Of a stretch of DNA of 64,000 nt, positions 2,320 through 63,751 are shown one piece after another. Positions within the stretch are counted from its first letter, which is position 1; each line of letters begins with the position of its first letter. The notes beneath the pieces were generated by a model. It saw only the letters and a list, made by a program, of their open reading frames with translations. It was not told the origin of the DNA and made no database searches. Source of the stretch: Mytilus galloprovincialis (lineage: Eukaryota; Mollusca; Bivalvia; Mytilida; Mytilidae); contig NC_134847.1 of the NCBI RefSeq assembly GCF_965363235.1, positions 57,568,439 through 57,632,438 of the forward strand, in the 5' to 3' direction. A program made the translations under genes and the position numbers.

Positions 2320-2330
2320 TTATATCTTAT

Positions 2331-3103
2331 TTTTATACGACCGCAAACATTTTTTTGGGATCGTATAATGGTATGATGACGTCGTCTGAGTCGTCGTCCT
2401 TCGGTCGTCCGAAGATAATTTGGTTTCCGAACAATAACTTTAGTTTACGTGAATGGATCTCCTTGAAATTTAATAAGAAGAAAGTTCAATACCATAAAAG
2501 GAAGGTTGGGATTGATTTTGGGGATGATGGTTCCAACAATTTAGGAATTAGGGGCCAAAAATGTGCCAAAAACAAGTTTTTTTTGTAGTTTCTGGACAAT
2601 AACTTCTGTTAGTGTATGGATCTCTCTGACATTGTACAACATAGTTCCATAGCACAAAAGGAAAGCTGTGATTGAGTTTGAGGGTTATTGCCCCATTCAT
2701 GCAGGAATTAGGAGCCAAAAAAAAGGGTCAAAAACCAGCATAATTCTAGTTTCTGGAAAATAATTTGTGTTTGAGTGTATGGATATCTCTGGAATTGCAC
2801 TACTACAATGTTCCATACTACAAAGGAAAGGCTGGGACTGACTCAGTTTGCTTGCTCCAAGGAGGGTTCAAATTTTTTTTTAAAAATTTACTGTCACGAA
2901 AAGTTTCAAGAAGAAATTTTTAATTGCACAGTATTGAGCAATATATTTCTAAGATCTTGACATTTGTTTTGTGTTAGAAACCTATATAATGTCAAAAATT
3001 TGATCACAATCCAAATTCAGACAGTATAAATCTTAAATATGGTGTCCAAATTTGCCCCAACTGTTCAACTTCAACGGTCGTATCAGGATGCGCTCAGCGA
3101 AGC
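2331..3103 (+). repeat. Composite repeat copy A (short, diverged)
   Basis: Begins with the terminal motif TTTTATACGACCGC, followed by a GTC-rich tract (about 2378-2415), then three diverged modules starting near 2425, 2590 and 2750 (each containing a form of ACAATAACTTTAG and then AAAAGGAAGGTTGGGATTG). It ends in a terminal segment containing TGTCAAAAATTTGATCACAA and a diverged GTCGTATCAGGATGCGC. The same parts in the same order make up the copies at 21.57-28.51 kb (minus) and 47.80-51.03 kb (plus). It has no protein-coding capacity. Confidence 0.75.
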
Positions 3104-3500
3104 ATTTATTTAAAATCCTAGAATATTGACCTCTTAAATCTTTTGTTTGTTATATATATTTTGTATTGCATGGTTGATGTCTCATTTACATAAACAATAC
3201 ATCATTTTTCTTCATGAAGATGATCCTCTAGAATTAAGAGGTTCGCTAAATTGAAAAATCAGCAAGTCAATAGGAGCTCTAGTCATATACATAGTACACG
3301 ATATAATAAAACAAGAGACCAGAACAACAATTAAAAAGTCACATACAATTGAACTAATAGGAGACCAAGGCACCTTGAAAGAACAGATGGAAGATGGATG
3401 GTACATATGTCCTGCCCAAATAGTACTAGCATTGTCATAGTACTATGTGCAATAAAAGACACGAGAATAATTTTACAAGAAGAACAAGATAGCCCATGAA

Positions 3501-8975: not shown

Positions 8976-9591
8976 AAAACAATATGTCTATTTCCTCCTG
9001 TTCCATTAAAGGTGACAAACACTTGTGCACTGTAATATGACTAAGATGATATTCACAATAATCTCTGTAAGTTGAAATGCAAAAAGAAATATCCAAAATG
9101 TCAATGTCAAGATTGTTAATCTATGTTATAATCTGAATGCCAAGCAAGTGGTCTACTAAAACGAATTGATTTACGTTGTGTAGTAAGTCCTGTTGGAGCA
9201 ATAATCAACTGAGGAGTGTTGGTGGAGCACTCGCGTTAGAAGGTGCTATCCGATTACAATGGTTGCATCCAGCTCTTTGTGTTGAAATAGCGGGGTGATA
9301 CCTGGCCAAATACCGACGACTCTGCTCTAGAAATCATTGATGTTACTCCTTTGTGGGCTGCGTGCAAAGCCGAAAAAACTTCCTCTCAGAGACTGGGGGA
9401 TGATGATTCTATCCTTGTATATTATAATACCATCAAGAGTGTCAAGGTGTTCACGGAATTGGAAATTATCTGGCAAGTGAAGAGGAAATTCATGTCGAAA
9501 TGTACGAACTCTGTCCCAATTAAAATATCTGACTGCAAGCGAATGAGGGAGGATACGGCTGATATAAAGAATAAAGACATTGTTATCTATT

Positions 9592-11160
9592 TTAGAAGCA
9601 TCTGATTCTAAATCTGAATGATGTATATCTGATAAAAAGATTTGTGCTATTCTTGATGGCTGCTATGTCATCTGAGAGAATAAATCTTTCAGGGTTCGCA
9701 GTTGGATGACGTGTCACACCGTTAGCGGAATGATGTTTGACGCCATGTACATACATCATCCGGAAATGATATCTTGGTGTTTTCTCTTTCAAATTTCGAA
9801 GGCATAAATTCGAGATATCTTCTAAAGAAATGTCACTGAATACTTTCAGGGGCGGTTTATGGTCATCATCTATAATAAGATCGTCGCATCTCAGTTCAAA
9901 ATACAACGCTTTATCCAAAGCGTCGACAACGGCTAGAGCTTCGCCTTTTAATGACGCATACCGGGATTCAATTGGATGTGTAAATCTACTCCCGACAAGC
10001 GTTATTCGCTATCCTGTGTTACAACAAATTGGTTCACTACCTTTGCAGGAACATATTTCTGAAATAGCCAAAAGCCAATATCTGTTTTAGACGAATCTGT
10101 AGCAAGACATGTCAGTTTACTTTTATCAAAGATGCGAACGCCCTCTTCTATTTCGCTTATGATAGCAGCTTTTAATTCCTCGAACAGTCTGTTAATGTGT
10201 TCTTCCCAGATTTCAATGACTGTCTGAAGGGAAGCATCTGATCAGCCATGCTGAAGTCGTAGGACACTTGATTAACGAGACCGTACCATGAACGTATATT
10301 CATGATATTTCTAAGAGTTGGAAAATCTAAGATTGCTCTTAGGTATTATATGCAAGGTTTGACAGTGTTGGACGTGATTTCAAATCCAGTAAACTCTACT
10401 ACATCTTGACCTAATATGAACATATAAGGATCAAGGAAAAGGTCATGACGATCTCATATATCGAGCCATTGTGCAACTTGTAAAATTTTTCCCTCAATTG
10501 AATCAGCTCATAGGATGACGTCATCTACACATCGGGTTTGTTCGGAATGTCAGCAACAATTTCATCATATCGTCTTGTATAGGCGTCGTCTGAAGCTATG
10601 AAGCCTTGTGGAGCCGTCTTGATCAAACCAGCTTTGACTGCCTCTTTCCAGTTGATTGGTACTGGTACTGGAGTGTGATGAGCAACATGTTCAGCTTCGG
10701 GATCCACCATCAATCGCATTTGTAGTCCCTCCGAATTGCTGGTAATCACATGTATTGAAGGTACTAGATTTGTAATAGTCTATGCGAGGTTGTCTTCAGT
10801 TGCTGGATAAGGTAAGTTCATCGGCATTGGAGGCGGCAGCTTCTGTTGAGGAAAGTTACAGTTGGTATCTAGACCGTTAACACTTCCGATGTTGTTTGTA
10901 ATGTTTTGAGGATTATCAGTACCGGGAGTATGTTGCGTATCGTCCATTTCACCAATTGTTGGAAAGCTGTCGGAGATCATTCGAAGAGCAATACAAGCTT
11001 CTCGTCTGATAAATAGCTTATCAGAGTTGTCAATTACATACGACATTTATCTCGTTTCGACATGCATACATTGACCAACTTGCCGGAGATGCGGAGTATG
11101 GTTGCATCAAGGATTGTGATACCTTTGTTGGTGGCAGCAGGTAGCAGCATGCATTTTCAT
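9592..11160 (-). pseudogene. Decayed Ty3/Gypsy-type pol remnant (protease end to RNase H)
   Basis: Read on the minus strand, four broken pieces follow the usual order of a Gypsy-type pol gene. 11160-10780 looks like the end of the protease and the spacer (residues such as DNSDKLFIRREAC and LPYPATEDNLA). 10749-10525 resembles the start of reverse transcriptase (AEHVAHHTPVPVPINW). About 10510-10240 reads through at least three stop codons as the middle of RT, with CVDDVIL in place of the usual catalytic F/YxDD box, then connection residues such as IRSWYGLVNQVSY. 9918-9592 is the end of RNase H (DHKPPLKVFSD, then LRNLKEKTPRYHF). Frameshifts separate the pieces, so no intact protein is made. Long terminal repeats, gag and integrase were not found, so boundaries are only those of recognisable coding remains. 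It is richer in G+C than its flanks. Confidence 0.75.
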
Positions 11161-16699: not shown

Positions 16700-16860
16700 A
16701 ATGCTTTGCAGAGCGCAGCCTGATACGACTGCAGAGGTAAAACCCTGAACAGTTGGTGCAAGTTTGGACTCAATATTCAACCTTGATATTGTTTGAACTT
16801 GGATTGTGATCAAATTTTTAAAATAATATAGGTTTCTAACACAATATTTATCTGACACAA
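16700..16860 (-). repeat. Composite repeat terminal fragment (copy D)
   Basis: Contains GCAGAGCGCAGCCTGATACG and then ACTGCAGAGG, CCCTGAACAGTTGGTGCAAG and the TTGTGATCAAATTTTTAAAA block. This is the terminal segment seen at the ends of the composite repeats near 21.57 kb and 51.03 kb. Only this end is present. Confidence 0.7.
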
Positions 16861-18802: not shown

Positions 18803-21800
18803 CTGCAATTGTTAAAATCAAATAAATAGTTTATTAGATTAGATCCAATGAATTACATAGATTTTCCAGTGAAATAAAAACCAATAATTTCAGGTTATTT
18901 TACTCCTCAGAGTCATACAACAATCGGTGTTGCCAAGACGTTGTCTATGACGTGGAATCAAAACAAATTGTGAAAACGTAGAAAAAGATATAGTTCTTTA
19001 AATTTTTTACTTTAATTTCAGAAAAAGCCATCTTTCAATGTAATAAAAAGAATAACTAAACAAAGAATTCTAATATCTAAAAATATTCAACTTGTGACAG
19101 AAAAACACTGATAATGAACTCATGCATTATTCCCATTTGTACATTGATGTGTTGTTCGGTCACACTTAGAATATTTTTTATATTTGAATTCTTCAATTAA
19201 CTATTCTATATATTAATGTTTTACTGTCATACAAATTGATGTAAATCTATTAGGTATATCATTAAAAATAAAAATAAAATTTTAATTCAAATCAATTCCA
19301 ATAATTTATGTGTCCCTTGTCATTTTTTTCTTAGCATTTCAAATATTGTTTATATATTCAATAAAATGATTCTGAGATATAAATAGATTGTAAGAATTGA
19401 ATGTGTGTTCATTGAAACTGAATTAGGATGGTAAAACTGGAGCATGATCAATGCCATTATGGGTTGTGCTTTGGCTGGTATGAAATAGATTACATAGAAC
19501 ACAATGGCAGTGTCTGTCTTGGTATATATCAGATTTATATACATATTGCACTGCTAATAAACTGCTATCCACCAGAGACCAAATATATTCATCATGGTTG
19601 ATAATAATGGTAGCATTAAAATTAGAATAAGTCTTACCAAATGTGGTTTATCACAAAATAAACTAAACATGAAAATATTATTTTTTTTAAAATATTGATT
19701 AAATGTGTTTTCTGTTTATTTTGTCATGAAATACTGTGGATTCTTTTATTTTCGTGGGTACCAATTTTGGATCAAGAAAAAGTTTCATTTTCATGGTAAG
19801 GTGATTTCCTGGCTTTGCAGAAAACCTGATAGACAATTTGTATTAAGTAGTTGAACATTAAAATTCCTGGTTAACCTGTACCCAAGATGAAACAACGAAA
19901 ATTGGTATTCAAAGAATAATAATGAATCTACAGTAAGAAACAAAAAAGATTAATGTTTGTTCTGTTTTAGTTTTCATGTTTCAAGTATAATTTTTCTCAG
20001 TCGTCTTTTTTTTAATTTATAAAACTTCTTTTGTCCCATGATATATCATACCTAATTGTGGAGCGTAGCCAGGACCTAACTGTGGAGGATAACTTGATGG
20101 GATGACTTGTACAGATTGTTGTGGATATACTACTGGCGGCTGTTCTACTTTCTACAATATCAAAACAGTAATTAAGATTTAAAAAAACTCACAACATTCT
20201 CTTGATCTTTCAAAATGTAATGTATCAAATTGTATTCAAATAAAGATCAGCAATAATAGATTGTTAATTGAACAAGGATAATTTCAAAAGTCCTTTTGAA
20301 GAGATGAGTACTTCCTGCAAAGCGGCAGCCATTGAAAATGAATTTCATTTTGCAATGAAATAAAAAGAATAAGAACGGAATAAGAAAAATATTGTCCAAA
20401 AAAAATAGTTTAGAGAAATAAGTCTTTTAATGATGTTCTTGACCTAGACTGTTACTGTAAATGTTCATCTTAAAAGATTCAAAGGTTTGAAAATGTAATC
20501 TGCAAACTTAAAACCTAATCAATAATTAAGTTAAGCAGATGAAATGCTAACAAATTATGATCCTGGTATCTTTGATAATTTATAACAGAAATATTCCTGC
20601 TACTCACTGTCATAGTCATAACTAAATTGATCATGCCTTCCTTTTCATCTCCTTGTTTACCACTAAGAGGGAACCAGTCATCAGCTGTATCCCCATTGAA
20701 TGTTGACTGTGGGATAGTGATATAGGCCCAGGCTATTCTCTCATCCATTGTTAACTGCCTCTGTATAACATCAATTTAGATGAGTAAACATGTCATAACA
20801 AAAATTAGTTTTGCAATATAAAGTTGGAATAATGGCTGATTTTATGAATGACTTTTAAAAAATAAATAAGAGAAATTGTATTGATGTAAAGTTGAAGTTG
20901 TCTCTTTTGGGAAAGGGAGGGGTCAATAATATACATTGGACTGTGAAAGCAGTTTTGCTGCATCTATTTAATATGAATGGTTCTTTTATTCTAGTTTTAA
21001 TTTTTGTTGACATTTACTCATTTAACAATATTTTTATTTACATGCATTCTTTCACTAGGTTACAAGAGCGCAATTATTTGTTTACATTTTACCGGCAGGT
21101 TTTTTACCCCAAGATGGTACTCAGAATAGAATCCTACACAGCTTCTGATTGGTTGATGCAAGAATGGAATTATATTTTATCGAAAGCTTATCCAATTAGG
21201 TTAAAAAATTGCTGAAAATAATATTTACATTTTACGAAGTATAGAAAATATCTTCCATTTCTGCACGTAGAAGCCATTAAAAATTTTCCTTTTTCTTTAA
21301 GCGAAAAAAGTAGACGTACTTTTTCAACTGCATTTTAAGTCAATTTGAGCTGCATGACCCTATATATTTTTTTGGTTGTAATGCAACACTGGCATTTCTA
21401 GTCACAGGAACTGCTACCCGTTTTTCCCTAGTTTGTGTAGTCTTCGAGAACAAAAATATGGAACACTAGTGGTACCCTATGGAAAATGCATTACAAATAA
21501 TTGCGCTCTTGTAACCACTAAAAGGCATAAAGGGGAGATAATCCATACAAGAAAATGTAATGATGTACAAACCAGAGGCTCCGCAGGGCGCAGCTTTATA
21601 CGACCGCAGAGGTTGAACTCTGAACAGTTGGGGCAAGTATGGACACAACATTCAAGCTGGATTCAGCTCTAAATTTGAATTGTGATTAAATAGTTGACAC
21701 AGCATAGGTTTCTGACACAGAATGAATGTGGTCTAATGAACTTAAAATACTTTTTTTTCCTTTGAGCAATTCACTATGCTGTTGAATATTAATCCTTTCA

Positions 21801-24800
21801 AAAAAATGTTTGAAGAAATTTCTTTTTATTTTTTTATTTATGAAATCTGAAATGAGAAAAATTTAACCCCCCCCCCCCCCCCCATTTTCTTTTTCACATC
21901 CCCCTTTCCCTTTTTCCAAAACTGATCTCAATTCAAATTTCTAATGGAGTTTGCAGATTCAGATTCAGATTCAATAGTTTATTAAAGTCTCACCACATAC
22001 AACATGATTAAAACAAAGATACAATTATAAAATTAATTATACAGTAAACATAGTTAAAACAATTAAATACATGTATGTGCCATTCTTAAAAGAATTATGA
22101 GAGACTATTAAAATACAAATAATACTTATTCATTTTATAAAAAACTACAAATACAGTAGTTAATGATATAAAATACTGTTTCTCCTTGTTAAAATGTTAT
22201 TGCAGGTTTTGGCAACAATATTACAAATATTGGTATTTTTAAACATATATATAAATTTTTCTTCATCAGACAAGTTTAAAAACATATCATTATGACACAA
22301 TATATCAATAAAAAGAGCATGTCTTAGATCTTCATACAAGGGACAATTTAAAAGTACATGTTTTTCATCCTCTAAAACATTGCAGTTAAAACAGACTCTT
22401 TCGTCTAGATTTTTTCTTTCATATCGACCAGTTTCAATTTTTAATGGTGCTACACCACATCTAAACTTTGAAAAAGCACTACGATGGCGCAGTGGCATTT
22501 TTTGTAGCAAATATTGCTCAGTGTTATAAGTATGTTTAAAAAGTTTATATGTTCTCAATTTACAACCGGTACTATATGAAAAAATTCTGGTACACCAGTC
22601 TTTTTTATATTTATCAAACATTTTCTCTTCTAACTGAGATATACTATAACTATCAAGAAAATTTTCATTTATTTTACAATATCTTTCAAAATCAAATGAT
22701 TTCAACATCTCCATAACTTTGTAGCACCAATTTTTTAATTTACAACTACCTTTCATCACTGACCATTTAAAAACTTTATAATTAATTCTATTATTGTCCA
22801 TTTTTGTACATTTGGACCAGTGTCTAAAAATATTTATCCACTGTTTAACACATGGTGGTTTCCAGCCCATGTCACCTGACACAGCATCGTTTGGGGTATA
22901 TTTACCCACACCCATGTAGAAACGCATGGCGCGATTCTGTACTGCAGTGATGCACGAGAAATCTCTCGTGCCCCAAATAGACGAGCCATAATTTATGACT
23001 GACCAAACCATCGTATCAAATAGCTTTGTGTAGATATTGTGCTGAAAACCACCATGTGCTTTACATTTAACAATAAGTAAACCTAATGCCCTACTTGCTG
23101 ACCTGGCTACAGCTTTTGCCATTAATTGGTAGTCTAAAAACTCTGTTAACAATAAACCTAAGTATTGGTAATTTGAAGCATACTCAATATTTTCATCATT
23201 TAAACTAAAATGAAAATCTGATCTGGCTATAGAAGGATTTCTAAAATGTATAATATTTGATTTTCTCAAATTTACTTTTAAACTATTATGATTACACCAT
23301 ACATTTAAAACATCTAATAATTTTTGTAAATCCTCAGCATTTTCTGCTAATAAAACTATGTCATCGGCATACAGCAAGATAGATAATTTTTCACCATCAA
23401 TATTAATACCAATGTCTAACAACTTTATATCATCAATTAAATCATTAATAAATATATTAAACATTACTGTTGACAATACACAGCCTTGTTTTAAACCAGT
23501 ATTTACATTGAACCATTCAGTCATGTTACCATTTAATCTGACACTGCATTCTACATTAGAATAAATAGCCTTTAAAGCATACATAAATTTTGTACTAACA
23601 CCCAATTTTCCTAATTTATTAAATAACAAAACTCTATCAATAGAATCATAGGCTTTCTTAAAATCAATGAAAGATACAAAAGTTGACAGCTTACATTTTT
23701 TTCTAGTTTCAATAACAGATGTTAATGTACTGATATGATCTATTGTACTTCTACCTTTAATAAACCCGTTTTGTTCATCATTTATTATATCCCTATTGTC
23801 TAACCACTCAGTTAACCTTTTATTTAAAACGCCACAATAAAGCTTATATGCACAAGGTGCTAAGGTAATACCTCTATATGATAATGGATCTCTAGGATCT
23901 GTAGTTGAACATTTAGGTATAGGAGTAATAATACCTTTGTTCCACATATTTGGAACTTTGCCAAATTTAAAACAAATATTAAACAATTTAGTTAAAGTAA
24001 AAATAACTGCATAATTTTTGCATAATTCTGCCTGAATACAATCTACACCTGGGCTTTTCCCATTTTTGGCTGCCATTGCTACCTTATAAACTTCATCAAA
24101 AGATATATAATCATCTAAATCATTACAAACAATATCATTCTTTACAATTAAATTTTCAACACCAAAATTATTGTTGTTATCTGGATCGGAATTCAACAAA
24201 CCATGAAAACTGTCTTTCCATTTTTGTAAAACATCGTCAATGTTATTTGTAACGGATCCATCACTTCGCAACACCTCATTTGGAATTTTCGATTGTCTGT
24301 CATTACCAATACCAATATTGCCTATTTTACGCCAAAATTGTCTTGGATCACTTTTGTTTAAATTTACAAGTTCCTCTTGACAACTGTGCCAATATTGTCG
24401 TTTACTTTGTTGAACTAGTTTATCAAATTCTTTTCGCTTATTAACATACATTTGTCGTAAATGTGTGTTACTGTTAACTTTGGTACAATGTAAATACTGC
24501 TTTTCTGCTAGGCATACCTGATTCCATTTTACAGTTAGTTCATCGGTCCACCATCGTTTTTTAAAGCGGCGCTTTTTGTTATTTACACTGTTCATAATTT
24601 TTATCTTTTTGTCTAATTTATCATTCATCTCATTATGTATAACATTAATAAATTCACTATATATATTATCTAATTCAACTTGAATTCCATTACAACTTTC
24701 TATATTTGCAATACATGAATTAATAAGATTAATACTATTTTCATCATTCATCCAAGTATCAGGAATATTTTTCACATTATAAACAATATGATTACTTCTA

Positions 24801-27800
24801 TTATCATGAATATTTACACTTTGCTTATTGGTATTTTCACATATTGCAGTTTCAAATTCCCAGCATAAAACTGAATGATCCTGGATATATTTTGGCTCTA
24901 TTGATCCTGTTGTTAAACTTTTATTTGCCAGGTCACTTGCACGAATGACTTCAAATTTTTTAAAACTATTTATATTTTCAAATGGGGTAATACAAAAATC
25001 AACTACTGAGGATCCTCTTGTAGATACATATGTGTAATCGTTACTTATGTGATTACGACCATTCAGAACACAACAATTTACATTTGATAAAAATTCACAG
25101 AAAATTTCTCCGTAGCTATTTGCCTTAAAATCAATTACTTCACGTTCAGGCAAATTATCTACCCCTAGAATATAATCCTCCATATCTCCAATCCTGCTAT
25201 TAAAATCCCCACAAATATAAAACGGACATCCATTCGGAATAGAGTATATTTGAGACATAAGTGTATCAAAAAATTCATAAGCATTTGTTGAACGTGCAGA
25301 AAATTCAGGCGGTAAATACACAACACTAACATAAAATTTATTACTATCGTTGTTTTTTTCTACAAATTTTATCCAGATTATCCCATCCGTTGACTCGTCT
25401 TCAATATCAATGTTGAAAGTAGTTAGTAATTCCTCTTTCACTAAAAGGCCAACCCCGCCTGAGCCTGTCTTTGCACGGGTATGAATTAGCTTGCGGTTGT
25501 TACCATACCATTTATAATTATCAATGCAAATACTATGATTCACCAAATGTGTTTCTACTATCCCTATCATATGAAGATCTAAGTTCTTTAAACATGCATC
25601 AATTAAAATATTTTTGTCACTATTTACATTCTTTGACCATCCATTTATGTTCCATAACCCGCATCGGTATTACCATGTCCTACCACGAACAGGGGCGCAC
25701 CATTGATCTCTTTGATTGTTTTGTGTTTTTCTCTTACTAACATTGCTTTTAGCTGTAGAACCATTCTGTCTATACCCTGACCCACGGGAGTAGTTTTGAG
25801 TGTAACTTTCATTGTAGTTGTCTTTCCTATAGCTGTCATTTGAATCATTTTTATTAAAATTTACAGCTCCCCGTTTCTTAATGTGACCTGAAACCGATAC
25901 AAACTCCTCTTCCTTCCCTACTGCTTTCAAGAGATTATAATTGTTCCGATCTATCAACCTTTTTTCGTAGGGTATGTGGTTTTCAATGTACACGGATCTG
26001 TATTTGACTGTTTCTCTTAACACCCTTTTTACCTTCATTACAGATTGTTTACTGTTCAAGTCTCCGAATTCAATTACCACAATACCAGGCCTTGCTTCAT
26101 TGTAACTGGACTTACGTTCAACTGATTTAATGTTTATGTTTTGGAGTTTCAATCCGTCCTTGACCATCGTTTCAATGCGTGACCTTAAGGCGGTGTCATG
26201 TGAATTTTCGTTCTTGTCACACGGAAGATTTTTCACTACTGCGATAAATACTTTACTAGTGTCTTTTTCTTCTTTTTTACTCAAGCCTTTTTTGACAATT
26301 TCACTATATGATTTATCTAATTGTTCATATTTTTCTTTCATAGTGTCTAATTCTATCTTTAGTTCAGAGCGAACCTGCTCGACCTCCCCTTTTATCCGGT
26401 CTGTTATTACAGTGTTAAATTTAACAGTTAGTTTGCGTTCAACATTACTTTCAATATCACATATTCTCTTTTCAAGTCTTTCTGCCATATTATCGAGGTT
26501 GTTTGATAGTTTACTGATCATTGTTATCAATATATTGTTTTCGGGAAAAGGGGGGTGCTCGATGCCATTTTTACTCTTTTTGCTTTGACAGGATCTTTCT
26601 TCCTCATTTTCTGATTCTGAAAGTTGACGTTTTCTTGGTGTTTGTATAATTGTTCGTTGTTGTTCAATAATTGCTGTTGTACTCACCAGGTTTAACTTTT
26701 CTTCAACTGGGAAAAGGGGGTTTACCGCCATTACGTTTTGAACAAAGTCTACAGCACAACTCTGACTGAGTGGATCGTCCCCGGTATCAACAATATCAAC
26801 TAATTCTTGATGATTCTGGGCTAACTTACTCAAAATCATACTTTGAATACTCTTTCAAACTTTTTCTTCAACTTTAGGATGTAGTAAATTACACTTTTAT
26901 AAGATATTTAGGAGCACAGGAAAATACGTCCGTCCTGGTTAAAACTGCTCAATAACAATAACCACTCATTTAAATACATCATAAAATATTAAAATGTAAC
27001 AAAAGGTGCTTGTTATCACTGAATGGTAAAGATTGTTTTAATTTATCAGTTGGTAGTAAAAGTGAATATACATTGTATATTGTATAAAACAATGATTTAA
27101 GTTGATTCAACTACTATTCTGGACAAAGAAAGATAACTTCAATCAATTGAAAATTTCTTGCTATTGCACAATATTGTGCAAGTAAATATTTCTTGCTATT
27201 GCGCAATACTGTGCAATTGAAAATATTTGCTATTGCACAATACTGTGCAATTGAAGATTTCTTGCTATTGCGCAATACTGTGCAATTGAAAATTTCTTGC
27301 TATTGCACAATATACAATTGAAGATTTCTTGCTATTGCTGAATACTGTGCAATTGAAAATTTCTTGCTATTGCACAATACTTAATATAATAATTTTGGAT
27401 CCTGATTTGAACCAACTTGAAAACTGGGCACACAATCAAAAATCTAAGTACATGTTTAGATTCAGCATATCAAAAAAGCTCAAGAATTCAATTTTTGTTA
27501 AAATCAAACTTAGTTTAATTTTGGACCCTTTGGACTTTAATGTAGACCAATTTGAAAATGGGACTAAAAATCAAGAATCTACATACACAGTAAGATTTGG
27601 CATATCAAAGAACCCCAATTATTCAATTTTTGATGAAATCAAACAAAGTTTAATTTGGACCAGATTTGGACCAACTTGAAAACTGGGCCAATAATCAAAA
27701 ATCTAAGTACATTTTTAGATTCTGCATATCAAAGAACCCCAAGGATTCAATTTTTGTTAAAATCAAACTAAGTTTAATTTTAAACCCTTTTGACCTTAAT

Positions 27801-30800
27801 GTAGACCAATTTGAAAACGGGACCAAAAATTAAGAATCTACATACACAGTTAGATTCGGCATATCAAAGAACCCCAATTATTCAATTTTTGATGAAATCA
27901 AACTAAGTTCAATTTTGGACCCTTTGGGCCCCTTATTCCTAAACTGTTCGGACCAAAACTCCCAAAATCAAACCCAACCTTCCTTTAGTGGTCATAAACC
28001 TTGTGTTTAAATTTCATAGATTTCTATTTACTTAAACTAAAGTTATGGTGCGAAAACCAAGAATAATGCTTACTTGGGCCCCTTTTTGGCCCCTAATTCC
28101 TAAACTGTTCAGACCTCAACTTCCAAAATCAATACCAACCTTCCTTTTGTGGTCATAAACCTTGTGTTTAAATTTCATTGATTTCTATTTACTTAAACTA
28201 AAGTTATTGTGCGAAAAAACCAAGAATAATGCTTATTTGGGCCCTTTTTTGGTCCCTAATTCCTAAACTGTTAGAACCAAAACTCCCAAAATCAATCCCA
28301 ACCTTTCTTTTGTGGTCATAAACCTTGTGTCAAAATTTCATAGATTTCTATTTACTTAAACTTAAGTTATTGTGCGAAAACCAAGAAAATGCTTATTTGG
28401 GCCCTTTTTGGCCCCTTAGTAATTCCTAAAATGTTGGGATCAAAACTCCCAAAATCAATCCCAACCTTCCTTTTGTGGTCATAAACCTTGTGTCAAAATT
28501 TCATAGATTTCATCTCAAAAAGGTTTCTGAAGTGGAAAGGAACTGTTTGTGTAACACTTAGTATTTAAATTTCGTTTCTTACCTCATCAAAAATCTCTAA
28601 ATACATGGAGTCTACACCATGAGGTAAATATCTGAAAGTCAAAATCAAAAATTAAATTTTTTGATATTTGATTTTTTAATACTAAATTGCTATACTATAT
28701 TCTCTAATTTTCATGCTATTTTCATGATTCTTGATCAGTGTGAGAAATTATTTCTCATCTCTAGAGATATATTTTTTTCTCATCTAATGCTTGGTACAAA
28801 TCAACTATGATGTCAAATATTCCTGATTCCTACTGAATTTCCTATTGTGATGTCACATATAAAGAACACATCTTTCTTCAAATCTTTAAAAAGGAAGGAA
28901 AAGTTTTTTTTAGATATCGTCTTTAAAAATCATTAGAGAAACAAATTCCACCCCTATTATCTATATCTTGTCTATCATGTCTATTATGATATTTCTTCAC
29001 TCTTAACAGTTAAATTTCAAATATTCAAAAATCTTGGCATGTCTCACTTTCTTTATTTCAAATTTAACTGTCTCAAGTTGAAAATACAGTAACAAACTTA
29101 ATGCAGTGGTGAGATCTATATTTCCAGCACATAGAATTACTTTGAAGTCGTTTTAAAATCTAACAAAGCAATATTTGTTTTCTATTGACCTCATACAAAT
29201 TTGCTTTTTAGAGCTTTGAAAAAATGTTACACATCTAATGATTTAATACTTCTTTAAGGTGGTACCTAACACTACAGGGAGATAACTCTGTAAAGTCAGC
29301 TAAACGTTTTAATTACGTTGTGTTGTAAAAGAAATATTAAGCTTCTAAATGATCAAAATTGATGTTTGTCAAATTGCTATATAACCAGTGTATTTTTTCT
29401 GACAAAACGGTTGGTTCAAAAAATTTTAAATTTTTATATTTTTATTAAAGTCTCAAAGTAAATACTTTGACAAAATTTTATAGAAATTAAACGAGACAAA
29501 TTAATTTTAGTGAAAGTGTTGGGTACCACCTTAATTTCTTAATGTCTTTTTGGTAATTTGTGTCATGTACGGTAATTTTAGAACTAATTGTTAAATATTG
29601 AAAATCGCAGTTGAAGGACTGAATATCTAGAAAATTGTACATTTCTTTAATGTGTATGTATTCAGCTTCTTTTAAAGTAAATAAATGATGTTACTTTGGT
29701 TTGAGAGAAAATTATTTTTAATCAAAATCAAACAGTCAATTGGTTATTGTTTTTTATAGAAATCATTAAGGACGTTAGAATACTGATGGACATGTACAAG
29801 TTTTACAAATTTACTTCTGATTTACTATAAGTCATTAGTTATTATACATTTGTAGATGTACATCTATATCAGCGATTTATATAGTTCTTTCATAACATGC
29901 AAAATAAGTTGTGTTTTTTTCTTCTTCATATTTATGAAATGGATTCCTTTTCATCAGACCTTTTTGTAACCTTTTGAATTTGCAATGAAAATATTCAATC
30001 AAATAGTAGTTGAAATTCACAGCACTGTTCTTGCAATTTTAGCTTCCATTAAAGACATTGTCTATATCTAGGACAACACACTCATATCTTACACATTAAC
30101 ATTTCTGTTCCATCTAGGAGTTTTGGCACCATTATAATCTGTAGGTGTCTCAAACACGGAGTGACCAATTCTCATTCTAACATACGGATCCATCTTTGTT
30201 AGCCCATAGTTCTTATTCAACTTGGCCTGAAAACGTGAAATTTCAATTAAACACATTTTACTTTGCTAGAAAACTGAGCCATTTTAATGAATTGTAGTGA
30301 TGAAGCCCCTGTTTCTATATCCAGCTAACAGCTTGATTTTATTTCATGTTTACAGTACTTGTTGAAGAAAGTTAAAGATGATTGAGTTGAGAAACCTATA
30401 TACATGTATTTTACCTGTGCAACGGTTATAGTAAGTCTACCAACAGTATTTGCTGGAATAGCAACAAATCCCCCCTGTTGCTGTGCTTGTACAAGCCTTG
30501 CAACTCTTTCATCTGCCATTACTTGAGCTTGTGCTACATCTACAGGTACTCTCAGGAAATCTTCTGGTAATTCTCCAACCATAACCTAAAATTGAACAAA
30601 GTATTTCTGTATGCATGTATATATTTCATTATGTTTCTTGTTCATGAATTCTGATTATTCATCTGTAAAACAGCTTATTCTAGTGAATACTTTTTTCCAG
30701 GTTTATAGCTTTGCTTGTATGCCAATTTATCATTAACTGAGTTTTGTAATTTGTAATTTGGATAATGCATTAATGTAACCCTTTCCTCCATAATGACGCC

Positions 30801-46621: not shown

Positions 46622-47120
46622 TTCTATGGTAATAAATCCCCCTTTTATAAGTTAAAAAGGCTACATTTCCCCCCTTATTTTAAAACCACCAAATATCCCT
46701 CTTTTTTTTTAGGGGTGGGTTGGGGGGGGGGGGGGTTCCCAACCTGTTTATAAGTGGAATTGTGAATCAGGCCATTACTCTTCTCAATTGTATTAATGCA
46801 TACTTTTCATGTCGGGACAGTTTTCCTCATTTATGAAGAAGGCTGTATGGTTGCCTATAATTGCTTTGTCATTTGAACCTCTGTGGATAGTTGTCTCATT
46901 GGCAATCATATTACATATTTTAATTTTTATATGTATCCATCCTTTAGAAAAGTTGTTTTGGATGTAATGAATCCCCTCCAGATCCCCATTTATAAGTTAA
47001 AAAGGGTTCATCTTCTATCTTCATTAGAACATAATTTTGGGGGAAGGGGGAGGGTTCCAAACCTGTTGTTTATAAGTTGTAAATCAGGCCATTACTTTTC
47101 TTAATTTAATTGTTGCATTC
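46622..47120. repeat. Direct duplication of ~170 bp around a family F 3' end
   Basis: 46622-46805 and 46964-47120 share TTTATAAGTTAAAAAGG, a G-rich run with GGTTCCCAACCTG or GGTTCCAAACCTG, and AATCAGGCCATTACT. Between them (46838-46910) is the family F 3' end, GGTTGCCTATAATTG and AGTTGTCTCATTGGCAATCA. Confidence 0.7.
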
Positions 47121-47790
47121 TTAGACGTTACGCACGATATTGCGCCTCAAATGGTAATGTATTTGTACGTTTTACGGCGATTAATGATTATTGGGAATAT
47201 TTTGTTTATTTCGCTTACAATTTTTGTTTTGTACATCAATATGGATACTTCTTAATGTTTGGTTGTACTGAATATGCATGAAATATTTTCCACTGAAAGT
47301 AACATAAGCAACAAACAACAAAATGTATCGTATTTGGGTAATGCATTAGTATATATATTTTACAAAATACCCATATTTATCCCAAATATCCAATAGTAAT
47401 CTGCTTATTTGGTTCATGTCAAACGATAGCCTTCATCAAGTTTAACTCTAAATTATGTGAATTGCTATCCTCATTTTACACATTGAGAAACTAAATATTT
47501 GCTTAACTGAAACTTATAAAACTTATTTATAGTCTTCACCAGTTCATTGTCACATTATACTTGAATTGTTTTTTTTTCTTTTCTGGGCAGTAAGAGTTAT
47601 CTTTCGTTCCACATATACAATGTAGGAAACTGACTCTCTTCATAAAAAAAAAATAAAATAAAAATACATTTGTGTTTGTATTTTTATCTGTATTTTATTT
47701 TTCATTTACATTTTGTACTGTTAAATCAATCATCCTTAATCAGAACGATAGTTGTATGTGTGAGTGTATGCGAGTGGGAGAGAAAGGCTT
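47121..47790. other. Gene-free stretch
   Basis: No gene or clear repeat seen, apart from T-rich and A-rich runs. Confidence 0.45.
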
Positions 47791-47795
47791 TTTAT

Positions 47796-50700
47796 TTTTA
47801 TACGACCGCAGAATTTGAAAAATTTTTCGTCGTATATTGCTATCACGTTGGCGTCGTCGTCTGCGTCGGCGTCGTCGTCGTCGTCGGCGTCGTAGTCGTC
47901 GTCGTCGTCTGTATACTTTTAGTTTTCGCACTCTAACTTTAGTAAAAGTGAATAGAAATCTATGAAATTTTAACACAAGGTTGATGACCACAAAAGGAAG
48001 GTTGGGATTGATTTTGGGAGTTTTAGTCCCAACATTTTAGGAATTAGGGGCCAAAAAGGGCCCAAATAAGCATTTTCTTGGTTTTCGCACTATAACTTTA
48101 GTTTAAGTAAATAGAAATCTATGAAATTTTGACATAAGGTTTATGACCACAAAAGAAAGGTTGGGATTGATTTTGGGAGTTTTGGTTCCAACAGTTTAGG
48201 AATTAGGGGCCAAAAAAGGGCCCAAATAAGCATTATTCTTGGTTTTCGCACAATAACTTTAGTTTAAGTAAATAGAAATCAATGAAATTTAAACACAATG
48301 TTTATGACCACAAAAGGAAGGTTGGTATTGATTTTGGGAGTTTAGGTCCCAACAGTTTAGGAATTAGGGGCCAAAAAGGGACCCAAATAAGCATTTTTTT
48401 TGGTTTTCGCACCATAACTTTAGTATAAGTAAATAGAAATCTATGAAATTTAAACACAAGGTTTATGACCATAAAAGGAAGGTTGGTATTGATTTTGGGA
48501 GTTTTGGTCCCAACAGTTTAGGAATAAAGGGCCCAAAGGGTCCAGATTTAAACTTTGTTTGATTTTATCAAAAATTGAATAATTGGGGTTCTTTGATATG
48601 CCGAATCTAACTGTGTATGTAGATTCTTAATTTTTGGTCCCATTTTCAAATTGGTCTACATTAAGGTCCAAAGGGTCCAAAATTAAACTTAGTTTGATTT
48701 TAACAAAAATTGAATCCTTGGGGTTCTTTGATATGCTGAATCTAAAAATGTACTTAGATTTTTATACGACCGCAAAAATTTTAATTTTTTGGTCGTATAT
48801 TGCTATCACGTTGGCGTCGTCGTCTGCGTCGTCGTCGTCCTCGTTGTCGTCCGAATACTTTTAGTTTTCGCACTCTAACTTTAGTTAAAGTGAATAGAAA
48901 TCAATGAAATTTTAACACAAGGTTTATGACCACAAAAGGAAGGTTGGGATTGATTTTGGGAGTTTTGGTCCCAACATTTTAGGAATTAGGGGCCAAAAAG
49001 GGCCCAAATAAGCATTTTCTTGGTTTTCGCACTATAACTTTAGTTTAAGTGAATAGAAATCTATGAAATTTCGACACAAGGTTTATGACCACAAAAGGAA
49101 GGTTGGGATTGATTTTGGGAGTTTTGGTTCCAACAGTTTAGGAAATAAGGGCCAAAAAAGGGCCCAAATAAGCATTATTCTTGGTTTTCGCACAATAACT
49201 TTAGTATAAGTAAATAGAAATCAATGAAATTTTAACACAAGGTTTATGACCACAAAAGGAAGGTTGGGATTGATTTTTGGAGTTGAGGTCACAACAGTTT
49301 ATGAATTAGGGGCCAAAAAGGGGCCCAAATAAGCATTATTTTTGGTTTTTGCACCATAACTTTAGTATAAGTAAATAGAAATCTATGAAATTTAAACACA
49401 AGGTTTATGACCATAAAAGGAAGGTTGGGTTTGATTTTGGGAGTTTTGGTCCTAACAGTTTAGGAATAAGGGGCCCAAAGGGTCCAAAATTGAACTTTGT
49501 GTGATTTCATCAAAAATTGAATAATTGGGGTTCTTTGATATGCCGAATCTAACTATGTATGTATATTCTTAATTTTTGGTCCCGTTTTCAAATTGGTCTA
49601 CATTAAGGTCCAAAGGGTCCAAAATTAAACTTAGTTTGATTTTAACAAAAATTGAATCCTTGGGGTTCTTTGATATGCTGAATTTAAAAATGTACTTAGA
49701 TTTTTAATTATTGGCCTAGTTTTCAAGTTGGTCCAAATGGGGGTCCAAAATTAAACTTTGTTTGATTTCATCAAAAATTGAATAAATGGGTTCTTTGATA
49801 TGCCAAATCTAACTGTGTATGTAGATTCTTAAATTTTGGTTCAGTTTTCAAATTGGTGTACATTAAGGTCCAAAGGGTCCAAAATTAAACTAAGTTTGAT
49901 TTTAACAAAAATTAAATTCTTGGGCTTATTTGATATGCTTTATCTAAATATGTACTTTGATTTTTGATTATGGGCCCAGTTTTCAAGTTGGTCCAAATCA
50001 GGATTCCATATCAAGTATTGTGCAATAGCAATAAATTTTCAATTGCACAGTATTGCACAATAGCAAGAAATATCTAATTGCACAATATTGTGCAATAGCA
50101 ATTAATTTTCAATTGGAGTTATCTTTCTTTGTATAGAATAGTAGTTGATAATATATGTTGGAAATTTGCCAGACATGACTATGATGTCATTTTCTATTTT
50201 TATTTGCCAATAACTTTATGTAAATAACTTCATTGGAAATTTTCCAATATAAAATGTTGCTGATGAAGCTTTTTTTCCTTATCTTATCTAAAATGTTTTA
50301 GATAATGTATGTTGGACATTTGCCAGACATGACTATGATGTCATTTTCTATTTTTATTTGCCAATAACTTTATGTAAATAACTTCATTGGAAATTTGCCA
50401 ATATAAAATGTTGCTGATGAAGTTTTTTTTATTGTTTTATACAATAAACAATGTATATTCACTTTTACTACCAACCAATCTTTACCATTCAGTGATAACA
50501 AGCACTTTATTTTACATTTTAATATTTTATGATGTATTTAAAAGAGTAGTTATTGTTGCAAACTCCATTAGAAATTTGAATTGATATCAGTTTTGGAAAA
50601 AGGGAAACGGGGATGTGAAAAAAAGGGGGGGGGGTTTAAATTTTTCTCATTTCAGATTTCATAAATAAAAAGAAAATTTCTTCAAACATTTTTTTGAGAG

Positions 50701-51031
50701 GATTAATATTCAACAGCATAGTGAATTGCTCAAAGGCAAAAACAAACTTTTAAGTTCATTAGACCACATTCGTTCTGTGTCAGAAACCTATGCTGTGTCA
50801 TGATCAACTATTTAATTTAAGATTTAAAAAGTTTGAAGAAGAAATCTTTAATTGATTTGTAAAATCTTGACATTTGTTTTGTGTAAAAAAAAACCCATGT
50901 AATGTCAAAAATTTGATCACAATCCAAATTCAGAACTGTATCACGCTTGAATGTTTTGTCCATACTTGCCCCAATTGTTCAGGGTTCGACCTCTGCGGTC
51001 ATATAAAGCTGCGCCCTGCGGAGCACCTGGT
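47796..51031 (+). repeat. Composite repeat copy C (one truncated plus one long unit)
   Basis: Two starts are present. C1: TTTATACGACCGCAGA at 47797, GTC-rich tract 47837-47920, 161-bp modules (TTTTCGCACTATAACTTTAG) starting near 47922, 48085, 48242 and 48403, and a second module type to about 48763. C2: TTTTATACGACCGC at 48760, GTC-rich tract, 161-bp modules near 48861, 49025, 49186 and 49347, second-type modules 49490-50000, hairpin modules 50025-50115, a ~165-bp direct duplication (50140-50430), the uninterrupted LINE target (about 50552), and the terminal segment with CTGCGGTCATATAAAGCTGC to 51031. No protein is encoded; the Arg-rich frame is a translation of the GTC tract. Confidence 0.88.
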
Positions 51032-51079
51032 TACTTTATGTGATTACATGCTTGTTTTGAGCCCTATGATTAGGAAATA

Positions 51080-52216
51080 AAATATCTCTGAATATATGAA
51101 ATGAGAAGATATATACGATATGATGAGTGCCAATGAGACAGCTCTCTACCAGAAACCAATTGACATAAAACGTAATAAAATGCAATGTTTCCCCATTTAG
51201 ATCCGAACAGGAAGAATTAAGATATATATTTTGTTTTAATGAAAAAAAAAGTTTGTCGTGAATAACAAGTTAAACGGGTCTTGCTTATAAAATTCACTTT
51301 ACTTTCTTTAATAACGGAAAAATATAGGTTAAGAAATGAAACAATTGTCAGAAAAAAAGGTTAATTATATATATCTCACAGGTTTACAAGCTTTGTATGA
51401 TATGGAGAGGTATATAACCACGCTTCAGGCCCTATTTTATTTTGACTTTCAAGTTCTTTATTTATATGAATATTGTTGCAGAGAAATTAAAAAAAATCGC
51501 AGTTTAACGTTTCCAAAATTTGAAAATTTGAAAAAGATGATTTTTCCTCTCGTAATACACATTTTTTTTTAAAACTTAAGAACCTCATCAAAATGAACAA
51601 CTCCAGTCATTGGATTTTTTTTATACTGTGTGACCTTGTTGATAGTAACTGACTATCAGGAAAATTCTATCTGAGGAAATATATACAGATGATCCATCAT
51701 AAATAGCGTCCCAAATCGACAACGTTGAAAAGGTACGAAAATCGTCCAGTGGACAAACTTGCAAGACATTTCATTTCTTTGAAAACGAAATCGTTTTGAC
51801 TACGCAAGTTATCAAAAAGTGTTTAGCTGTTTTGTAGAGTTAAAGTACAATTACGAAAAAGCACTATTTTGCATGCAACAAATCTAAATTTTTAATAAAT
51901 AACGTCGAAAATGACAGTTTATCCGACATTGGACATCTTGCAAGACATTTGCTTAAAGCCATTACATTTTTATATGTGGTGTGAGTGCTGCAAAAATTGG
52001 ATTTTGATATGGTCTATCTATGTACTTTTGTGAGCATAATTTACACAAACGAAATTTCATGTAATCTTATATTTAAAAAAAAACCTATAAATTTTGATAA
52101 CTTAACATTTTCCTAAATCTGACCATTAAATGAACACTATTTGTTTTTGCCAAAAAAATAGCATTGATCGTAACAGGAACGCATATTCAGTAATATGGTA
52201 ATACTTTAATAATATA
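51080..52216. other. Gene-free stretch
   Basis: A small family F 3'-end relic (GAGTGCCAATGAGACAGCTC) lies at 51120-51150. The rest shows no supported gene. The phrase ACTTGCAAGACATTT or CTTGCAAGACATTTG appears at about 51759 and 51938 and hints at an old duplication. Confidence 0.45.
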
Positions 52217-52335
52217 GGGTTATTGCATGAATATTGGGGAATATTGTCCCGAGTAGAATTTTATATTGCACGAGCTTGCGAGTGCAATATATGTTCTACG
52301 AGGGACAATATTCCCCAATATTCATGCAATAACCC
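52217..52335. repeat. 119-bp near-perfect palindrome
   Basis: Arms beginning GGGTTATTGCATGAATATTG match over about 34 bp without a mismatch and a further few bases imperfectly. The centre holds a second small stem, ATATTGCAC...GTGCAATAT. A further inverted pair, TATTGTATAGCAATATAATA (52339-52360 and 52485-52506), lies to the right. In DNA or RNA this would form a long stem. Confidence 0.9.
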
Positions 52336-52606
52336 TTTTATTGTATAGCAATATAATATTTGAAAGTAAAAATTGGTTTAAACTAAGATTTTGTCGTTAA
52401 TGACGTCATGCATTTTAAAGATTTATTGCACTAGTGCAATATTAGAATTTATTACACGCTAACTTTTGGTTACGTTCTGTGGAAAATATTATATTGCTAT
52501 ACAATAATACAGCATATCATTCATTCGAATTTTCGCGGATATAACACTGTTTTGAAGAACACAAACACCCGCGGCCTGCTAAAGTTATTATGCGTATAGT
52601 CTGTTA

Positions 52607-62300: not shown

Positions 62301-62372
62301 GAAAATACTCATTTTTTTATTTTTTTTATTTGCATAGTCATTGATAGTTGAAAAGATTGTAATCCATCCAGA

Positions 62373-63018
62373 ATGCTTTCAACAATGAACACAACAATGA
62401 ACAGACTGAATATACATGATCACCATAGGGGATATGATGAGGTACCACAACATCCCTTAGACCGATTAGAACCTCTGAGAAATAGTGAAACCAGAAGAAA
62501 AAACACTTTTAATAGCTGGCCTAAAGATGCTTTAATCGATTGTAAGGATTTATGTAAAGATGGATTTTACTACATGGGACAGAGTGACAAAGTTCAGTGT
62601 GCATATTGTGGGGGAGTATTAAGTGGGTGGAAGAGAGGTGATAATGTTCATGACCAACATAAAAGACATTTTGGGAAGTGTCCAATGGTAACAGATATTC
62701 AGATAGATGGAAGTGATGAGTATGATGACAGTGACCTTGAGACTGATGGTCAGGGATATGACAGCGATTATAACAAACACATAAACTCAATTCCAACAAC
62801 AAACCAGCAAGTCGCCCCTAAAGATTTACATCAACCACATAATTTTGGAGATTTAAATCATGACATTAATGAAAGATCTATACCTGAAAGCATGGTACCA
62901 AAGGTTTACAATACAAAATATTCCTTGTACAGTCAACGAATGGAAAGTTATGAAAAATGGCCAAAAGATCATTTTTTAAAACCTGATGAACTTGCATCTG
63001 CAGGGCTATATTACAAAG
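62373..63018 (+). CDS. BIR-domain gene coding exon 1
   Basis: Residues 1-215 plus one base: whole BIR1, linker and the first half of BIR2 up to GLYYK. Two further in-frame Mets (5 and 9) could also serve as start. Confidence 0.85.
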
Positions 63019-63751
63019 GTTTGTTTGATTTATTACGGTTAAATATTATGATAACCTTTCCCTTGTTAAGATACTGGAATCATACTCACTACAGTCTGTC
63101 TGTTAAATGCTGTTTTAGTTTTCTCGTTTTCTTATACATGTTAAAAATGTTATATCAACTGTTTAAACTATTTTGTTGAAATTCTTTAAAGAGTACATGT
63201 ATAACCATGATAATTGAATATCATAGAAGTATACCTGCTGTTTGATATGAGCCAAGGCTCTGTGTAGAAGGTCGTACTTTGACCTATAATGGTTTACTTT
63301 TAACTAATTGTGACTTGAATGAAGAGATCTCATTGGCAGCTCATACCACATCTTCTTATAATTATTCATAAATGTGTTAACAACTAGGCTCAAGATGATT
63401 TATGTGTTATTATTAAATTATGTCGTAAAATAGTTTTCTCTCAGATCATTAAATAAAAACATGTCAAATATATTTGTTCAAAATTTAGCATTTATTTCTT
63501 ATGTTGTAAAAATGGTTCCTTATAAGATTCATTAATCAGTATGTACATGTAATTCATATTGAAATTGAGATTAATACAAAGTTTTAATGTTCTTATATAA
63601 TGGTATTATGTTTTTAGATTCAGAGGATAAGTGCCAATGTTTCCTGTGTGGAGGCATACTAGCAGAATGGGATGAGGGAGATATACCAAAAGATGAGCAC
63701 AAAAGATGGTTTCCAAAGTGTTATAACAGCATGAACAATGAGTCAGAGTGA
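62373..63751 (+). CDS. BIR-domain (IAP family) protein, two BIRs, no RING, 259 residues
   Basis: Two exons, 62373-63018 and 63618-63751, joined at AAAG|GTTTGT and TTTTAG|ATTC, give 780 nt. BIR1 is residues ~41-105 with ligands Cys76, Cys79, His96 and Cys103 (C-x2-C-x16-H-x6-C) and the YYMGQSDKVQCAYCGG core. An acidic, disordered linker (110-180, SDEYDDSDLETDG) follows. BIR2 is ~183-252, split by the intron, with Cys223, Cys226, His243 and Cys250 at the same spacing and WFPKC. The protein ends nine residues later, so it has no RING and probably no ubiquitin-ligase activity. Relatives bind caspases or IAP antagonists. The ATG follows a likely acceptor (TTTGCATAG at ~62337), so a 5' untranslated exon may lie upstream. 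Bivalves carry many such genes; I cannot assign orthology. Confidence 0.88.
63240..63360 (+). repeat. Family F-related 3' end in the BIR gene intron
   Basis: ATGAGCCAAGGCTCTGTGT, CTTTGACCTATAATGGTTTA and CTCATTGGCAGCTCATACC, the reverse of the 38712-39130 copy's end. Confidence 0.65.
63618..63751 (+). CDS. BIR-domain gene coding exon 2 with stop
   Basis: Residues 216-259: DSEDKCQCFLCGGILAEW through HKRWFPKCYNSMNNESE, then TGA at 63749-63751. Splicing at GTTTGT/TAG restores the BIR2 zinc ligands exactly. Confidence 0.9.

Follow-up and report, generated by a model that had tools for sequence, protein, structure and literature searches.

A paralogous empty site places the ends of a LINE insert within a TOLLIP-like intron, with at most one base of target-site duplication

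In LINE integration, the position of the second nick leads to a duplication, a blunt insertion, or a deletion, as set out in the available part of PMC2881922, and blunt-end joining is defined as the 0-bp class in the available part of PMC4245944. The latter source also describes ZfL2-1 inserts in HeLa-RC cells, of which 1 of 30 was blunt and 21 of 30 had short duplications, ZfL2-1 inserts in DT40 cells, 93% of which had duplications of 1-8 bp, and ZfL2-2 copies in zebrafish, about half of which had extra bases at the 5′ junction. Among bivalve LINE clades, the mean consensus length is 4937 bp for RTE-X and 5204 bp for CR1-Zenon in the excerpt available from PMC10294476. To judge from the accessible parts of the respective sources, neither the paralogous-empty-site method (PMC4067079) nor blunt joining (PMC2881922, PMC4245944) is new.

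The window analyzed here, that is, the whole stretch of DNA with a length of 64 kb, contained both a filled and an empty site. Very probably, a near-full-length APE-type LINE was inserted by TPRT into one copy of a host repeat (copy A) within an intron of a TOLLIP-like gene, and a second copy (copy B), about 23 kb away in the same window, was kept uninterrupted. The elements of this comparison were as follows.

47919-51049, plus strand: host repeat copy B, empty, with arrays of ~160-, ~135-, and ~35-bp units followed by an end segment.
21555-28511, minus strand: host repeat copy A, ~1.96 kb plus the LINE.
50549-50566, plus strand: empty site with the junction 50557/50558, where GTTATTGTT is directly followed by GCAAACTCC (BLASTN, global alignment).
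26954-27095, minus strand: filled site, left flank (LINE 5′ side), corresponding to 50429-50557 (BLASTN, global alignment).
21555-21954, minus strand: filled site, right flank (LINE 3′ side), corresponding to 50558-51049 with gaps (BLASTN, global alignment).
21955-26953 (or 21956-26954), minus strand: LINE insertion of 4999 bp, seen as a single gap against the empty copy.

When positions 50000-51200 were compared with the window by BLASTN, the left match, placed at 50431-50557 = 27093-26954, closed at 50557 = 26954 (E 2.4e-45), and the right match opened at 50557 = 21955 (E 5.2e-98), with both E values far beyond chance level. A global alignment of 27135-21560 (minus strand) with 50118-51040 (plus strand), in which long gaps were made cheap, gave one long gap of 4999 bp at the junction. 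The whole matching stretch was 50429-50814 (plus strand) against both insert flanks, 27095-21687 (minus strand), and the joined 18-mer GTTATTGTTGCAAACTCC occurred a single time on the two strands of the window, at 50549. The alignment of the 50-kb copy with the intron region, which the original prediction had proposed as its check, thus returned the filled and empty sites that it had described, with copy B uninterrupted at 50557/50558. The single long gap falls exactly between the ORF-bearing DNA and the flanks, which supports a LINE insertion.

The gap could be shifted by one base (T) leftward and by none rightward, and the placements 21955-26953 and 21956-26954 are equivalent because the insert and the left flank end in the same base, T. 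Since this one T is common to the insert end and the left flank, no more than 1 bp of the target can have been duplicated; should the G that follows TGAATCT derive from the LINE, the target would instead have lost 1 bp. The predicted coordinates of 21955-26953 and the predicted absence of a target-site duplication therefore stood in both BLASTN and the global alignment, to within this one base. A hidden target duplication was sought by comparing the 5′ junction (15 + 15 bases) with the 3′ junction (30 + 15 bases), which gave nine shared words of at least 4 bases, none of them in the right flank; on the 3′ side, all nine lay inside the LINE's own end, the longest being TATTGA.

Copies A and B were identical for 9 bases to the left and 27 bases to the right of the junction. 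The flanks, which had been called the same sequence, are homologous but not identical, with differences at 32 of 496 aligned positions (6.45% over seven blocks, a figure that omits blocks shorter than 11 bp as well as 27135-27107, an isolated block of 29 bp) and additional differences in length. In the global alignment, the extra lengths were 13, 10, 7, and 3 bp in copy A, and 6 bp, 101 bp, and ~270-280 bp in copy B. The predicted left flank does abut the junction, but begins only at ~50429-50431 = 27095-27093, and 27107-27135 pairs with 50120-50148, on the far side of a stretch present only in copy B. As a separate observation, positions 50147-50430 of copy B held a 130-nt segment in tandem (154-bp spacing, 97% identical) with no counterpart in copy A.

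Several length changes thus lie within the aligned stretch, and a small indel in either paralogous copy at the junction could mimic a blunt joint: a short target duplication or deletion would have been made, and a separate small indel would have arisen here in copy B or, ahead of the insertion, in copy A. However, the length changes nearest to the junction in the global alignment were 81 bp to the left and 67 bp to the right, and a coincidence of both position and length would be needed. Such mimicry is unlikely because exact runs of 9 and 27 bases flank the junction, and we regard this explanation as very improbable.

It is more improbable still that copy B lost the LINE exactly, or that the two copies arose as a segmental duplication, and no evidence was found for either event. 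We know of no route by which LINEs are excised, which speaks against exact loss. When 47000-52500 was compared with 20500-30000, no match between A and B was seen outside 47919-51049 and 21555-28511; because the match does not go beyond these repeat limits, the pair is better read, from the pattern of similarity, as two repeats of one dispersed family than as the same locus in duplicate. The host repeat was also present as two more partial copies (2329-3104 and 16835-16702), in keeping with such a dispersed family. Copy A had the same unit order as copy B, with fewer 160-bp and more 35-bp units. With the dispersed-family reading, copy B is to be taken as a stand-in for the pre-insertion site that is ~6% diverged from it.

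The two partial copies were also considered as extra empty sites and were rejected, having no match to the target segment 50431-50815. Around TGCGCCCTGCGGAGC, the end segment of these two (2329-3104, 16702-16835) is similar to, though not the same as, the one in copies A and B. When the ~160-bp units were checked against BIV160, represented by two D. trunculus PCR primers (PMC5139131) and not by the full consensus monomer, 46 to 191 of 200 shuffles scored as high across eight comparisons, and the primers thus lent this identity no support. Two exact patterns from the host repeat had 0 matches in viral_contigs.

The gene context was examined with a human TOLLIP protein sequence as the query, which matched the minus strand at five places (30585-30349, 30247-30092, 28627-28583, 20763-20605, and 18734-18609). 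The LINE had been placed within a TOLLIP intron, and it does lie between two TOLLIP-like exon matches, at 28627-28583 (E 0.009, weak) and 20763-20605 (E 1e-16); it occupies part of the interval from 28583 to 20763 in the same orientation as the TOLLIP-like gene. The weak exon match is only ~72 bp from the start of repeat copy A (28511-28583). Elsewhere in the window, an open frame at 62352-63179 (plus strand) had a BIR (inhibitor of apoptosis) domain in two stretches (83.4 bits), and two overlapping open frames were present at 9327-10008 (minus strand), one of which had a weak RT_RNaseH match (E 0.0028) below the cut-off.

Read on the minus strand, the insert was organized as follows.

26950-26953, minus strand: ATTG, the four bases with which the insert opens; they carry on the TTATTG of the target and may be filler.
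25670-26839, minus strand: LINE ORF1, 389 aa, with the stop TAA at 25672-25670.
22160-25669, minus strand: LINE ORF2 frame, 1169 codons directly after the ORF1 stop, with the first ATG at 25570 and with endonuclease and RT domains.
21955-22159, minus strand: LINE 3′ UTR, ending AATAAACTATTGAATCTGAATCTGAATCT.

In the Pfam search, ORF2 had Exo_endo_phos followed by RVT_1 (125.8 bits, 2.5e-36), the order expected of a LINE, and RNase H families were absent at E ≤ 1. The best match of the RT among solved chains was one named only RNA-directed DNA polymerase (1.8e-29), followed by chains of human L1 ORF2p (E 7e-29 to 3e-28) and of R2, while a sequence search with a 240-aa endonuclease piece gave no solved relative at E ≤ 1. 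Long terminal repeats were absent, as BLASTN of the insert against the window gave only the full-length self-match. The tail consists of ~3 units of TGAATC at 21955-21973, and the last 150 nt of the LINE had an RNA fold no better than that of shuffles (z -0.14). The insert is an APE-type LINE by its APE-like endonuclease, the non-LTR-type RT downstream in the same ORF, the lack of LTRs, and the short tandem tail. ORF1 had no Pfam family at its cut-off, and its two matches among solved chains were at chance level (E 0.55 and 0.95). When its C-terminal 272 residues were folded as a single sequence (mean pLDDT 53.8, pTM 0.27), the model contained a confident long helix at residues 2-69 and then a low-confidence strand-helix-strand-strand-helix-strand, which we take to be the order of an RRM; the model thus offers a hint of a putative RRM-like part in ORF1.

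For the insertion by TPRT, the endonuclease would have nicked the bottom strand within ~1 base of GGAGTTTGC/AACAATAAC, if the first nick was at the junction, and from this nick the RNA would have been copied, starting at its (TGAATC)n-like 3′ end. A second cut in line with the first, or the trimming of an overhang, would then have given a joint without a duplication, and, when the 5′ end was joined, the target would have been duplicated by 0 or 1 base, while 3-4 bases of filler may or may not have been added. The filler is a variant of this mechanism and compatible with it: instead of the LINE starting ATTGAGCAG, its true 5′ end may be GAGCAG or AGCAG, with ATT or ATTG being copied from the target TTATTG, which we hold to be a real, if tentative, possibility. 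The 5′ junction reads TTATTG-TTATTG-AGCAG, the 12-mer TTATTG-TTATTG was unique in the window on either strand, the probability of ATTG at the insert start was 0.0069 by the base composition of the LINE (with the motif chosen after the junction had been seen), and the zebrafish ZfL2-2 copies with extra 5′-junction bases (about half, in the available part of PMC4245944) provide a precedent. On the other hand, the pattern was noticed after the fact in one copy and in AT-rich DNA, and ATTG could simply be the LINE's own first bases. The exact ends that had been claimed consequently hold for the insert, whereas they are not proven as the ends of the LINE family, being known here from one copy, with 3-4 bp at the 5′ junction possibly filler.

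ORF1 stops at a TAA that shares the frame of ORF2, and the next 33 codons contain no ATG (25571-25672, minus strand). These 33 codons belong to the endonuclease domain: the ORF2 protein from its first ATG had an Exo_endo_phos match of 25.5 bits from profile position 34, and a 256-aa piece from right after the ORF1 stop had one of 37.2 bits (3.4e-09, cut-off 24.5) from profile position 3, with the two pieces differing in length. As read from these frames, either readthrough or reinitiation without an ATG would be required for an active ORF2, or a mutation lies in this copy. An overlapping stop-start is described for SART1 in the available part of PMC5972666. The RNA fold of 140 nt around the ORF1 stop was no better than that of shuffles (z 1.67). 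It is doubtful that this LINE makes its endonuclease-RT by stop readthrough or ATG-less reinitiation and that near-blunt joining is the rule for its family.

BLASTN (E 1e-6) showed the LINE only once in the 64-kb window. A pattern search with ORF2 gave 1 match in viral_contigs and 3 in genome_contigs, none of which was confirmed, and the 24-base tail pattern had 0 exact matches in viral_contigs; these collections comprise viral, bacterial, and archaeal contigs and say little on the spread of the LINE.

One LINE thus gains base-level ends, with the absence of a duplication beyond one base checked, which helps annotation. The case is correct and useful in this respect, but it is of a well-known kind and by itself leaves the knowledge of LINE integration unchanged. 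Base-level ends would also let the target preference of the LINE family be examined when further copies come to light. The most interesting lead is the ORF1 stop lying in frame ahead of an endonuclease that starts without an ATG; if conserved in other copies, it would raise a testable question of translation.

Compared with known systems, this LINE resembles APE-type LINEs in having two ORFs, an endonuclease followed by an RT in ORF2, no RNase H, and a repeat-like 3′ end. At ~5.0 kb, it is near the RTE-X and CR1-Zenon consensus lengths in the excerpted data, a likeness in length. Its 0-bp change of the target, within one base, is like that of the blunt-joined LINE inserts in the available parts of PMC4245944 and PMC2881922. 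For ZfL2-1, of the L2 clade, blunt joining was a minority outcome next to mostly short duplications in the accessible part of PMC4245944, and the single insert described here has no family-wide value. The logic of the paralogous empty site is that of PMC4067079, in which, as far as the available text goes, an uninterrupted copy of the flanks defines the ends of an element; it was applied there to Helentrons, whereas here it served for a LINE whose filled and empty sites share one 64-kb window.
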